Assembly: GCF_017356265.1 (NCBI RefSeq)
Contig: NZ_JAFNAW010000016.1
Location: forward strand, 1 to 64,000
Origin: Paracoccus fontiphilus
GTDB taxonomy: Bacteria; Pseudomonadota; Alphaproteobacteria; Rhodobacterales; Rhodobacteraceae
DNA length: 64,000 bases
Direction: 5' to 3'
Of this stretch, positions 48,079-51,963 are shown piece after piece; the stretch's first letter is position 1, and every line of letters starts with the position of its first letter. The notes beneath the pieces were generated by a model. It made no database searches. It was given only the letters and a program-made list of their open reading frames with translations, and had not been told where the DNA came from. The translations under genes were made by a program, and so were the position numbers.

Positions 48079-49374
48079 TCACAATCCGAAAGGCCAGGTA
48101 TCGGGCACGTCGCCGTGCCCGGCCCCCGGTCCTGCCTCGACCAGGGCCTGGGTCCGGTCGAACCAGATCCATCCGTCATACTGCCGGCCGGGCCTCGCCT
48201 GCATGTAGTGGCTCTGCAATTCCGTCTCTGGGCGGTAGATCACGCCGATGAAGCGCTGCGGCAAGGATCGCGACAATCCTTCGGCCAGCAAGGCATTTGC
48301 CCGCAGATCCAGCAGGAAGCCGTCGATCCCGGTGTCGTGGCAAAGCCGTTCGAAGCTGTCGGGATGCGAGGGCCGCACGGTCTTGACCTCGGCCGGGGCG
48401 CCCCAGTTGCTTGCGGCGGTGACACTGCCGTGGTCGGTGCCAAGGCCGATCAGGGCGACCTGGCCGTCCCACCGTTCGCGGGCAAGCTGGCCCAGATTGT
48501 GCTCGGCCCTCCGGCTGCCCATCTCGGTCGCGCGGGCGTCGCCAATATGCGAGTTATGGGCCCAGACCACCGCCTTGGCGCCGGGACCGCCCGCCTGCAG
48601 CAGATGGTCCAGCGTGTCGGCCATGTGGCTGTCGCGCAGGTTCCAGGCTTGGGACCCGCCCTGGTACATCACCCGGTAATAGCGTTCGGCCGAGGCGACC
48701 AGCCGGGCGTTCTGCGCCGCGTCCAGCAGGTCGATCCCCTGGCCCGGCCCCAGAGCCCGGGACAGGAGATCGCGGCATTGCTGGACCACCGCCTGCTCGC
48801 AATCGCGATAGCCCCGAAGGCCGGCGCGGCCATAGGCGGCGGGTCGGTCGATCCAGGGTTCCAGGCAGCCATAGCGGGTCCGCGCAAGGCTTGCCGCCTC
48901 GGGATCGGTGCGGTCCAGATAGTCCAGCACGGCCCGGATCGAGGCATGGAAATTGTAAAGGTCGAGGCCGTAGAAGCCCGCCTGGTCCTCGGGCGCCCTG
49001 CCCCGGTTCCAGTCGCGCATCCATTCGATCAGGCCCGCCACCTCGGCATTGCGCCACATCCAGCGGGGAAAACGCTGGAAGGCCTGGCCTGTGTCGTCCT
49101 GCGGCAGGCCGCGCGCATGGCGGTTCAGGATGGCGGCGTCGGGCCAGTCCGCCTCGACCGCGACGATCCTGACGCCGTGGCGGTCGATCATCCGGCGGGT
49201 GATGGCCCCGCGGGCGCGGTAGAACTCGGCCGTGCCATGGCTGGACTCGCCCAGCATCAGGATGCGGCGATCCGCCCATCGGTCGGCAATGGCCGCGAAA
49301 TCATCATCCTCCGGCGGCGGCAACGGAACGCAGCCGCCGGAGATCGCCTTTGCCAGGTCGCCGCCTGCGGGCAT
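48079..49374 (-). CDS. Erythromycin esterase-family protein
   Basis: This 431-aa protein contains the family signature LMLGESSHGTAEFYRARG near residue 40 and EADWPDA near residue 73. It also has QRFPRWMWRNAEV, FYGLDLYNFHASI and VVWAHNSHIGDARA, which together hold the conserved Glu/His residues of the active site. Most members outside resistance plasmids are of unknown substrate, so macrolide hydrolysis should not be assumed. ATG 49374 directly follows the stop of the 51-aa gene. The operon probably runs from the promoter at 50009 through three small genes to this one and the dead phosphoribosyltransferase. Confidence 0.87.
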   Translation of the reverse strand: MPAGGDLAKAISGGCVPLPPPEDDDFAAIADRWADRRILMLGESSHGTAEFYRARGAITRRMIDRHGVRIVAVEADWPDAAILNRHARGLPQDDTGQAFQRFPRWMWRNAEVAGLIEWMRDWNRGRAPEDQAGFYGLDLYNFHASIRAVLDYLDRTDPEAASLARTRYGCLEPWIDRPAAYGRAGLRGYRDCEQAVVQQCRDLLSRALGPGQGIDLLDAAQNARLVASAERYYRVMYQGGSQAWNLRDSHMADTLDHLLQAGGPGAKAVVWAHNSHIGDARATEMGSRRAEHNLGQLARERWDGQVALIGLGTDHGSVTAASNWGAPAEVKTVRPSHPDSFERLCHDTGIDGFLLDLRANALLAEGLSRSLPQRFIGVIYRPETELQSHYMQARPGRQYDGWIWFDRTQALVEAGPGAGHGDVPDTWPFGL

Positions 49375-49743: not shown

Positions 49744-49974
49744 CTAACCCTCCTTGTCGCCGTCGCGGTTGCCGACGTGATCGTGAAGCTGCTCGGTATC
49801 GACATGACGGGAATCGAGGCCGCGCTGATCGGAATGGCGCGACTTGTCGCGGTTCGACAGGATCTCGTTGTCGGGCAGCTGGTCGGGCACGTCGGGGGAC
49901 ATGCCGCCGGTGCCGTCGCCCTTGCCCTGGTCCTGCTGGCCCGCGCCGAACTTCTTGCTGCTTGCATTGGCCAT
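49744..49974 (-). CDS. Small hydrophilic protein (76 aa)
   Basis: ATG 49974 follows GGAGGGTTGAGAC. The product (MANASSKKFGAGQQDQGKGDG...) is almost free of hydrophobic residues, with Gly/Gln/Asp/His-rich stretches such as NRDKSRHSDQRGLDSRHVDTE. It resembles hydrophilin-type stress proteins by composition only. It is the first gene after the leftward EcfG-type promoter at 50009-50033 (start 34 bases downstream). Confidence 0.65.
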   Translation of the reverse strand: MANASSKKFGAGQQDQGKGDGTGGMSPDVPDQLPDNEILSNRDKSRHSDQRGLDSRHVDTEQLHDHVGNRDGDKEG

Positions 49975-50008: not shown

Positions 50009-50033
50009 AACCGGCTCGCGCGGGGATTGTTCC
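50009..50033 (-). promoter_or_regulatory. EcfG-type promoter, leftward (small-protein operon)
   Basis: On the reverse strand GGAAC (50033-50029), 16 bases, GGTT (50012-50009), 34 bases before ATG 49974. It is back to back with the consensus site at 50042. Confidence 0.55.
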
Positions 50034-50041
50034 GAAAAGGG

Positions 50042-50066
50042 GGAACCGCCGTCAGCGGGGGCCGTT
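50042..50066 (+). promoter_or_regulatory. EcfG consensus promoter, rightward (PAP2 gene)
   Basis: GGAAC (50042-50046), 16 bases, CGTT (50063-50066): exact consensus. The start codons at 50075 or 50084 are so close that the message would be leaderless or nearly so. Confidence 0.6.
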
Positions 50067-50074
50067 ACCGAGGC

Positions 50075-51001
50075 ATGTCACAGATGCCCGACCAGACCGA
50101 GCCTGACGACCCCGCCGCCAAGACCGAGGGGCTTGAGAAGATCGACGTCGAGGCCGCCAAGGCGGCCGCGCAGCACCGCCATCATCCCATGGTCAGGACC
50201 TTGGGCACGGTCAGCGAACTGGCGGACCAGATGCAGCTGACCACGGTCTGCGGGGCGGTCATCGCCGGGGGCATCCTTGGCGGGCGGGCCGACATCGCCC
50301 GGACCGGCCTGCGGATGATGGCGGCCCATGTGCTGGCCAATGTCGTCAAGCGCCGCATCAAGAACCGCCTGCGCCGCACCCGCCCCGAAAAGATGGTCGA
50401 TGAGCAGGACTACCATTTCGAGCCGGGCGAGGCCGAGGGAGGCCACGAAACCTCGTTCCCGTCGGGCCACACGGCCGGGGCGGTCGCGGTTGCCCGGATC
50501 GTGGCCCGCGACATGCCGGCCTTGTCCCTTCCCGTCACCGCCTTTGCAGCCATGATCGCGACGGTGCAGGTGCCGCGGGCCAAGCACTATCCCATCGACG
50601 TCGCCGCGGGCGCGGCGCTGGGCCTTGCCGCGGCCTGGGCCGTCGACCGCCTGCTGCCCGGCACCCGCCATCATTCGCAAGCCAAGGAGAACCGAATGTC
50701 AGACGACGCCACGAAATCCGTCTCGGCCCTGTTCGAGACGCGGGAAGCCGCCGACTACGCCATCGAGCATCTGGTCCAGCAACACGGGCTGAACCGGGCC
50801 GACATCTTCGCCGAGCCCGAGGGCCCCGGCAACACCGCCGGCAATCGCCCCTCGGGCGGTGATGCGAACAAGGGCGACGGTGCGGAAGGCGCCGCCCTGC
50901 GCGGCGGGATCAAGGTGTCGGTCGATGTGGCGTCGGACCGGGTCGAAACCGTGGAAGGCACCTTCCGCGAGATGGGCGGGCAGGACATCGCGCGGCGCTG
51001 A
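50075..51001 (+). CDS. PAP2-family phosphatase fused in frame to a small stress-type protein
   Basis: The 308-aa reading frame first encodes a PAP2 (lipid phosphatase/chloroperoxidase) domain: KNRLRRTRPEKM (Lys-x6-Arg-Pro), ETSFPSGHTAGAVA (Pro-Ser-Gly-His) and KHYPIDVAAG (His-x3-Asp), with hydrophobic helices between. The motif-3 Arg usually six residues before the His appears to be Gln. Without a stop codon the frame continues at 50696 into MSDDATKSVSALFETREAADYAIEHL..., a 101-residue module normally separate. An AAGGAG site and ATG at the junction suggest it can also be made alone. Start 50075 or 50084. Confidence 0.78.
   Translation: MSQMPDQTEPDDPAAKTEGLEKIDVEAAKAAAQHRHHPMVRTLGTVSELADQMQLTTVCGAVIAGGILGGRADIARTGLRMMAAHVLANVVKRRIKNRLRRTRPEKMVDEQDYHFEPGEAEGGHETSFPSGHTAGAVAVARIVARDMPALSLPVTAFAAMIATVQVPRAKHYPIDVAAGAALGLAAAWAVDRLLPGTRHHSQAKENRMSDDATKSVSALFETREAADYAIEHLVQQHGLNRADIFAEPEGPGNTAGNRPSGGDANKGDGAEGAALRGGIKVSVDVASDRVETVEGTFREMGGQDIARR
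50696..51001 (+). CDS. Internal start: small stress-type protein module (101 aa)
   Basis: ATG 50696 is preceded by AAGGAG at ideal spacing inside the PAP2 reading frame. The encoded 101 residues (ETREAADYAIEHLVQQHGLNRADIF..., then GGIKVSVDVASDRVETVEGTFREMGG) form an alpha/beta module that looks complete by itself, with a disordered Gly/Asn middle. Separate production in addition to the fusion is an inference from the ribosome site. Confidence 0.5.
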   Translation: MSDDATKSVSALFETREAADYAIEHLVQQHGLNRADIFAEPEGPGNTAGNRPSGGDANKGDGAEGAALRGGIKVSVDVASDRVETVEGTFREMGGQDIARR

Positions 51002-51027: not shown

Positions 51028-51294
51028 TCACTTGCCCTCGGACACGAACTTGTTGAAACGGCTGGTGTCGCCACCGGCCGTTTCGTCCTGGTACAGGAAA
51101 TGCAGGCCGTTCTCGTCGAAGATCTCGAAGAACTCGTCCCAGGAAATCCGGGTCAGGCCTTCCTCTTCCTCGCCGAAGTCGATGCGCAGGATGCCGCCTT
51201 CGCCCTTGGTCTCGACCATGGCGGGGTGGCCGTCGCGCGATTCCGCCCATTCGCGGATGGTGTCGTGGTCCTGGGTGGTGTTCGATGTGGACAT
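51028..51294 (-). CDS. Small acidic protein (88 aa), conserved WDEFF motif
   Basis: ATG 51294 follows CGGAGGACCGC. The product opens with HDTIREWAESRDGHPAMVETKGEGG, continues with ILRIDFGEEEEGLTRISWDEFFEIFDENGLHFLYQDETAGG and ends RFNKFVSEGK. This arrangement (DHDTIR.WAE, I.WDEFF, YQ..TAGG, FNKFV) recurs in small bacterial proteins that are sometimes mislabelled as glucan branching enzyme; no catalytic domain is present. It is convergent with the PAP2 gene and has an exact EcfG consensus 30 bases upstream. Confidence 0.72.
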   Translation of the reverse strand: MSTSNTTQDHDTIREWAESRDGHPAMVETKGEGGILRIDFGEEEEGLTRISWDEFFEIFDENGLHFLYQDETAGGDTSRFNKFVSEGK

Positions 51295-51373: not shown

Positions 51374-51399
51374 GGAACGCCCTGCCATCCCAGGCCGTT
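51374..51399 (+). promoter_or_regulatory. EcfG consensus promoter before paoA
   Basis: GGAAC (51374-51378), 17 bases, CGTT (51396-51399): exact consensus, 39 bases before ATG 51439. Confidence 0.6.
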
Positions 51400-51438
51400 G
51401 AGGCGCTGCCAGCCGCCATGCCAGCCATTGGGGAATCC

Positions 51439-51963
51439 ATGCAGATCACGCTGAACCTGAACGGCACGTCCCATCACTTGGACGTGGACCCGCGCACCAC
51501 GCTTCTGGATGCGCTTCGCCATCACCTCGGATTGACGGGGACCAAGAAGGGCTGCGACCACGGCCAATGCGGGTCCTGCACGGTCCTGATGGACGGGCGC
51601 CGCGTCAATGCCTGCCTGACGCTGGCCTGCATGGTCGAGGACCGCGACATCACCACCATCGAGGGGATCGGCACGCCCGGCCACCTGTCGCCCTTGCAGC
51701 AGCAGTTCCTGGACCATGACGGCTTCCAATGCGGCTATTGCACGCCCGGCCAGATCTGTTCGGCCGCCGGCATGCTGGAGGAGATCGCGGCAGGCTGGCC
51801 CAGCCATGCCTCGGAGTCGCTGGACGGCCCGTTCGAGCTGAGCCATGCCGAGATCGCCGAACGGATGAGCGGCAACCTGTGCCGCTGCGCCGCCTATACC
51901 AACATCGTCGCGGCCATCCGGCAGGCTGCCCAAGGCGACAACCGGCGCGAGGACGCAGCATGA
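51439..51963 (+). CDS. paoA: Aldehyde oxidoreductase iron-sulfur subunit (PaoA-like)
   Basis: This 174-aa protein carries two [2Fe-2S] clusters. The plant-ferredoxin-like domain has [18 protein letters not shown]...NACL, and the helical domain has [12 protein letters not shown]...GNLCRCAAY. It is the electron-transfer subunit of a molybdenum hydroxylase. The E. coli PaoA homologue has a Tat signal of about 50 residues; here the protein begins directly with MQITLNLNG, so the complex is likely cytoplasmic. ATG 51439 follows GGGGAATCC; ATG 51418 is an alternative. Overlaps paoB by ATGA. Confidence 0.9.

Follow-up and report, generated by a model that had tools for sequence, protein, structure and literature searches.

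Genes with an in-frame internal start, which yield a long and a short product, include cheA and infB. PAP2 enzymes carry a third motif of the canonical form (S)RX5HX3D, and in their usual topology the tail after the last helix is cytoplasmic. Among the membrane partners of known PII proteins are AmtB and SbtA. Coupling of gene pairs is described in parts of PMC10666635 as requiring very short distances, and such pairs as being enriched for complex subunits and often partners. With regard to the general stress response, sections of PMC6599016 give the EcfG consensus in Sphingomonas melonis as GGAAC-N17-20-GTT and list CO-dehydrogenase-like subunits among the EcfG-regulated genes. For Sinorhizobium meliloti, portions of PMC3616915 report 171 mapped leaderless starts, all promoters taken together, and the acceptance of promoters that end 5-12 nt before the transcript start.

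Here, we describe a locus of Paracoccus fontiphilus in which a PAP2 phosphatase gene runs directly into a gene for a small module (SM). It lies in a 64,000-nt stretch of DNA, analysed as a whole and referred to below as the window. No paper on the PAP2-SM pair was found by title or abstract opening, the term 'PAP2' was absent from the main text of PMC6599016 and PMC5830050, and a literature search joining PII-like with PAP2 and phosphatase returned no paper.

The junction in the window and across Paracoccus

Features of the locus are collected in Table 1. An earlier sequence-only reading of this DNA had seen no stop between the PAP2 domain and a 101-residue module, and an AAGGAG and an ATG exactly at their junction. 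Both observations were confirmed: the frame translates unbroken to 308 aa and closes with a TGA at 50999-51001, and the junction reads AAGGAG, AACCGA and ATG in succession, with a 6-nt spacer and with the ATG in frame with PAP2.

Table 1. Features of the PAP2-SM locus and its surroundings in the window
Feature	Position	Strand	Remarks
76-aa hydrophilic neighbour, divergent	49744..49974	-	In 8/9 tandem loci; no Pfam family
Divergent EcfG-type promoter	50009..50033	-	Strict pattern in 8/9 tandem loci
EcfG-type promoter GGAAC-N17-GTT	50042..50066	+	8 nt before PAP2 ATG
Fused ORF, PAP2 phosphatase and SM	50075..51001	+	308 aa
PAP2 part	50075..50695	+	PF01569, E 5e-14; motifs K96-x6-RP, PSGH at 129, R168-x2-H-x3-D; best solved fold match 5jki (PgpB)
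Shine-Dalgarno (SD) AAGGAG	50684..50689	+	6 nt 5' of internal ATG
CGA codon	50693..50695	+	TGA at the same place in the three nearest relatives
SM, 101 aa	50696..51001	+	Own ATG (50696-50698); predicted beta-alpha-beta, long loop, beta-alpha-beta
88-aa neighbour	51028..51294	-	EcfG-type promoter 51349-51325; in 5/9 tandem loci; no Pfam family
EcfG-type promoter (51374-51399) and [2Fe-2S] subunit gene (51418-51963)	51374..51963	+	In 9/9 tandem loci

A sample of 125 Paracoccus genomes, with a second search using an SM profile, was utilized to follow the junction through the genus. PAP2 was followed directly by SM at the same locus in nine genomes: that of the window, P. lichenicola (G024), P. 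shandongensis (G144), P. benzoatiresistens (G111), P. sediminis (G142), G012, G046, G038 and G101. In P. lichenicola, P. shandongensis and P. benzoatiresistens a TGA abuts the ATG of SM. Four genomes are fused in frame without a stop, carrying CGA (window), CCC (G012 and G046) or ATC (P. sediminis), whilst G038 and G101 display an out-of-frame overlap in which PAP2 ends in TAA 11 nt into SM. The 12 nt before the ATG are identical between the window and P. benzoatiresistens except for the T/C of TGA/CGA, and the linker amino acids are identical in the fused sister pair G012 and G046. Whichever of these arrangements is present, a near-zero distance or overlap is kept in all nine loci; PAP2 translation passes the SD and reaches or passes the start codon of SM in every one, and an untranslated gap occurs in none. 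With three further fused species, two of them sisters sharing the state, fusion at the PAP2-SM junction is, judging from these assemblies, real in the genus.

Both parts are under purifying selection. Across 10 of 36 possible pairs, dN/dS was 0.19-0.35 for PAP2 and 0.17-0.38 for SM. The SM values were 0.19 for the fused sisters, 0.18 for a TGA pair and 0.19 for the overlap pair, and were somewhat higher for pairs of the window with TGA species (0.23-0.32) than for TGA-TGA pairs (0.17-0.18). A pseudogene reading was rejected because these ratios lie well below 1 for both parts. Recoding was likewise discarded, since the codon at the junction is CGA and there is no stop codon to read through.

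The ribosome site of SM is as constant as the distance. All nine species, the four fused ones included, retain the SD and the ATG; the predicted duplex of the SD with the 16S tail ranged from -5.8 to -11.2 kcal/mol, AGGAG was present in eight of the nine, and the weaker site, at -5.8 kcal/mol, belonged to P. sediminis. The sequence-only reading had asked whether relatives all carry the same long fusion without the ribosome site, which was not the case: four of nine are fused and nine of nine have the site. In stand-alone SM homologues, the protein begins at the homologous Met. As a control, 275 in-frame internal ATGs were drawn from 35 long non-overlapping ORFs of the window, a mechanically picked set that includes some spurious frames and leaves out the fused ORF itself. 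Only five had an SD 5-mer 3-8 nt upstream, among them the genuine start codon of the gene at 51294, and none had AAGGAG 4-8 nt upstream. Duplex energy alone was less special, with 28 of the 275 scoring -8.3 kcal/mol or better. It is the retention of SD and ATG across nine species that, on sequence grounds, lifts the observation above chance. RNA around the SM start was predicted to be weakly folded, at -5.6 to -8.9 kcal/mol over 60 nt, figures that stand without a control set.

Predicted folds of PAP2 and SM

The PAP2 domain spans residues 81-190 of the fused protein, matching PF01569 at 52.6 bits against a curated cut-off of 27.2. The KX6RP and PSGH motifs are present and the third motif reads RX2HX3D at 168-175. 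In this PAP2 subfamily (window 50075-50695, locus L004) the third-motif arginine stands three rather than six residues before the histidine (QxPRAxHYPxDV), and in G046 it is replaced by histidine. A model of the whole fusion (pLDDT 86) displayed a helical PAP2 part, a low-confidence linker (residues 201-210, mean pLDDT 52) and a folded SM. Its best solved match was Bacillus subtilis PgpB (5jki; E 1.1e-4), the sole match at E <= 0.001, with GlnK chains lower down the list. A basic tail follows the last PAP2 helix and, on this basis and that of the usual PAP2 topology, SM is probably cytoplasmic in the fusion.

No Pfam or NCBIfam model matched SM above its cut-off. Modelled by itself (pLDDT 76, with residues 11-40 and 71-100 at 88-92), SM was predicted to run beta-alpha-beta, a low-confidence loop of approximately 30 residues, and beta-alpha-beta again. 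Among the 50 solved Foldseek matches listed for this model, 46 were PII proteins (GlnB, GlnK, GlnZ and the like), the rest being LarC2 (two), CutA1 (one) and a protein of unknown function (one); the best E was 2.3e-4, three matches had E <= 0.001 and TM scores were about 0.5-0.6. VIA-align gave Z up to 10.2, superposing 66 residues of 1hwu_E at 1.7 Å and 64 of PstA (4rwx) at 1.4 Å.

Sequence comparison did not recover this resemblance. In hhalign, SM against seven alphaproteobacterial PII proteins reached a probability of 3.2 %, with a shallow PII profile. For nine SM members no match to the P-II Pfam family was found up to E 5, although most matches weaker than about 0.1 are discarded by the HMMER filters, and none to YflT (PF11181) up to the same E. 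YflT was also without a match in the window's genome, and matched in 1 of 41 genomes, under cut-off and away from SM. A solved-structure search by SM sequence returned no relative (best E 0.5). Assignment of SM to PII or YflT by sequence was rejected on the profile comparison and Pfam searches. TraY, matched by 10 of 22 members in NCBIfam (best E 0.0053), was taken as chance, the window scoring 13.8 bits against a cut-off of 232. From its model, SM is called PII-fold-like here, not PII.

Promoter, neighbourhood and distribution

The EcfG-type promoter pattern GGAAC-N17-GTT, with an identical 8-nt gap to the PAP2 ATG, was present in all nine tandem loci and in two PAP2-only orthologues. Across the window, GGAAC-N16-18-GTT matched 15 times against 3.14 expected, and 0 of 100 shuffles had as many. 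Small hydrophilic ORFs lie downstream of some of these 15 sites, with a back-to-back pair at 542-568 as one example. At stand-alone SM loci the strict pattern was found upstream on the coding strand in 2 of 12 (L069 and L072). A variant of the consensus, GAAAC-N16/17-(C)GTT, was noted by eye upstream of four rhizobial SM genes (L074, L075, L077 and L082). NepR (PF18557) is encoded by 123 of the 125 Paracoccus genomes, that of the window among them; it lies about 15.6-17.3 kb from the PAP2-SM pair in eight of the nine tandem genomes and on a separate contig in the window's. We infer from these motifs that an EcfG sigma factor drives the PAP2-SM unit. The label 'small stress protein' given to SM by the sequence-only reading is partly supported, being in keeping with the promoter, whilst no named stress-protein family was matched. 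When the promoter-to-start spacing of S. meliloti is applied to the 8-nt gap, transcription would begin no more than about 4 nt from the PAP2 ATG, probably giving a leaderless message. The 20 nt before that ATG also give an SD duplex energy of -8.6 kcal/mol, although they would be absent from the message if it is leaderless.

An erythromycin-esterase family protein (PF05139) is encoded beside stress genes on the minus strand at 48079-49374, and its gene adjoins the pair or PAP2 in several relatives. A PAP2 orthologue lies between the same neighbours without SM in G003 (L006) and G051 (L007); as their PAP2 nests within the tandem group on the PAP2 tree, this suggests that SM was lost in both. 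Conversely, SM without PAP2 before it was found in three more Paracoccus genomes (G029, G005 and G103). Weak partial matches in G003, G051 and G150 and second hits in G111, G046 and G144 (E 2.2e-4 to 6.9e-4) were not counted as SM, nor were two similarly weak and partial hits from the family-level sample.

All five close named matches were from Paracoccus, and a sixth, from Dysgonomonas, covered only 29 residues. The only full-length SM match in a sample of the family (n=394) was the window's own genome, and SM relatives were found in 6 of 385 genomes sampled across Alphaproteobacteria, again with the window's own included. They were also present in 145 plasmid records, mostly of Sinorhizobium, Agrobacterium and Rhizobium. 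In the five annotated plasmid records examined, SM was a hypothetical protein and PAP2 did not adjoin it in any. On Shinella plasmid pShin-03 (L075, 2413-3294) the stand-alone SM gene follows an annotated sigma-70 family sigma factor gene, and an annotated general stress protein gene is nearby. One examined stretch of S. meliloti 1021 pSymB contained no SM.

Proposed coupling, fusion and an apparently optional stop

We consider it reasonably probable that PAP2 and SM form a coupled two-gene stress unit in which the stop is dispensable, and that this species makes both a membrane-tethered fusion and free SM. In such a unit the gene of a membrane PAP2 phosphatase would come first and that of SM second, the two overlapping or abutting such that ribosomes leaving PAP2 could re-start on SM. 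In the window's lineage no stop precedes the start of SM, most likely through a change of TGA to CGA. Ribosomes that started at PAP2 would here read on, giving a fused product in which SM is attached after the last PAP2 helix, probably on the cytoplasmic side, whilst those loading at the kept AAGGAG-ATG would still make free SM. Production of both forms is likely, and free SM would be expected to predominate, since its internal SD is strong and the PAP2 start probably lacks a leader. The earlier suggestion of a gene that makes both forms fits these data, in that the ribosome site persists in four of four fused species and relatives with a stand-alone SM begin it at that ATG; the two products themselves are inferred. 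The features constant across the nine loci may reflect selection for coupling and for a free SM, the stop being optional.

The sequence-only reading also proposed that the stop was lost recently. The PAP2 tree excludes SM, PAP2 rows below 50 % identity, and L008, in which no ATG was found. It joins the window to P. lichenicola and P. shandongensis with support 95/91, and these three fall within a larger group that includes P. benzoatiresistens (94/95). A joined tree of PAP2, SM and two neighbours gave this order again with lower support (83/87 and 74/71); P. sediminis entered it without the 76-aa neighbour, a gene not found in the fetched stretch. Because both trees nest the window among species with TGA, its three nearest relatives, the favoured direction, though not a proven one, is stop loss in the lineage of the window rather than stop gain in those relatives. 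The SM tree disagrees, placing the three TGA species together without the window (89/83). On the joined data, a constraint that unites these three loses 7.9 log units and is not rejected (AU p 0.07), a grouping of the window with P. benzoatiresistens has AU p 0.20, and the neighbour tree by itself does not resolve the window's placement. The SM tree and the AU value of 0.07 leave some room for an old fused state in the group, with a stop gained by the three TGA relatives and no recent loss in the window, yet the PAP2 and four-protein trees make this unlikely. The PAP2 and joined trees each require at least three switches between the fused and unfused states and the SM tree two, and repeated change of state in the genus is a firmer result than its direction. 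It is very unlikely that the fusion is an assembly or sequencing error over a true TGA, leaving two ordinary coupled genes. In the window a single base of one draft assembly (185 contigs) separates CGA from the TGA carried by its three nearest relatives, but no single miscall explains CCC or ATC in three other species, two of them sisters. The worry about an error near 50690 applies to the window's own base rather than to fusion in the genus.

What the fusion is worth to the cell is a separate matter. Were this a true gene fusion, with the 308-aa protein as the sole relevant product and the SD a disused relic, the intact frame in four of nine species and the shared linker of G012 and G046 would be expected. 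This same pair still keeps AGGAG and ATG, however, the junction changes state repeatedly as though the stop were immaterial, and other Alphaproteobacteria encode SM alone, all of which makes such a fusion quite improbable. The opposite possibility is the strongest of the alternatives, though still short of probable: SM would be made almost entirely from its own site and the read-on product would be a functionless tail on PAP2. The presence or absence of the stop does look nearly neutral, with fused, abutting and overlapping states side by side in close relatives and SM under similar purifying selection in fused and unfused pairs (0.18-0.19), and the fusion may lack a function of its own. Against strict neutrality, PAP2 reaches the SM start in nine of nine loci, suggesting that coupling at least is selected, and each completed PAP2 chain in fused species carries SM. 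Next in plausibility, and tentative, is a role for SM as a PII-like regulator of the PAP2 enzyme whose stoichiometry is fixed by fusion. The action of PII proteins on membrane partners makes such a role attractive, PII, CutA and PstA stand top in both structural comparisons of the model, and coupling and natural fusion point to partnership; set against this are the hhalign result, the lack of a P-II Pfam hit and the absence of PAP2 beside SM in the five plasmid records. More broadly, SM presumably acts together with PAP2, as its partner or its regulator. Speculatively, and with slightly less confidence than for the regulator role, the locus might encode a stress-induced membrane lipid phosphatase with a PII-like (trimeric, loop-bearing) subunit, free by internal initiation and tethered by read-on, with the tether toggled via gain and loss of the stop. 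If true, this would offer natural species pairs in which to test the effect of tethering.

The interest of the locus is that one junction occurs as abutting, overlapping and fused genes among nine closely related species, all of which retain the downstream ribosome site; it is a natural experiment on whether selection acts on coupled translation or on the physical joining of the proteins. The locus further draws attention to an unnamed family of small, predicted PII-fold-like proteins, here under a general-stress-type promoter, that ranges over Paracoccus, rhizobial plasmids and elsewhere in Alphaproteobacteria.

Compared with described systems, the window's PAP2 shares its fold, KX6RP, PSGH and HX3D with B. 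subtilis PgpB (5jki) and LpxE (6ebu), and differs in a third-motif arginine three residues before the histidine (canonically six) and in a tail past the last helix that is joined to SM. The predicted order of SM, beta-alpha-beta, long flexible loop, beta-alpha-beta, is that of the PII/GlnK, CutA1 and PstA folds, whereas SM has no detectable sequence relation to PII and has a short turn where PII has its nucleotide-binding B-loop. Like cheA and infB, PAP2-SM would use one frame and two starts, with the short form as the C-terminal part; unlike them, its short form is also encoded by a gene of its own, both in relatives and in other members of the class. The GGAAC-N-GTT promoter near the start codon is shared with the EcfG (sigma-E2) regulon as set out in parts of PMC6599016 and PMC3616915, the regulation of PAP2-SM being proposed here from this motif. 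Finally, PAP2-SM resembles the translationally coupled overlapping pairs covered in sections of PMC10666635 (termination-reinitiation) in its abutting or overlapping start and stop, an SD within the upstream coding sequence and likely partnership of the products, and departs from them in that some species have no stop, where a read-on fusion and an internal start would take the place of the two-gene arrangement.
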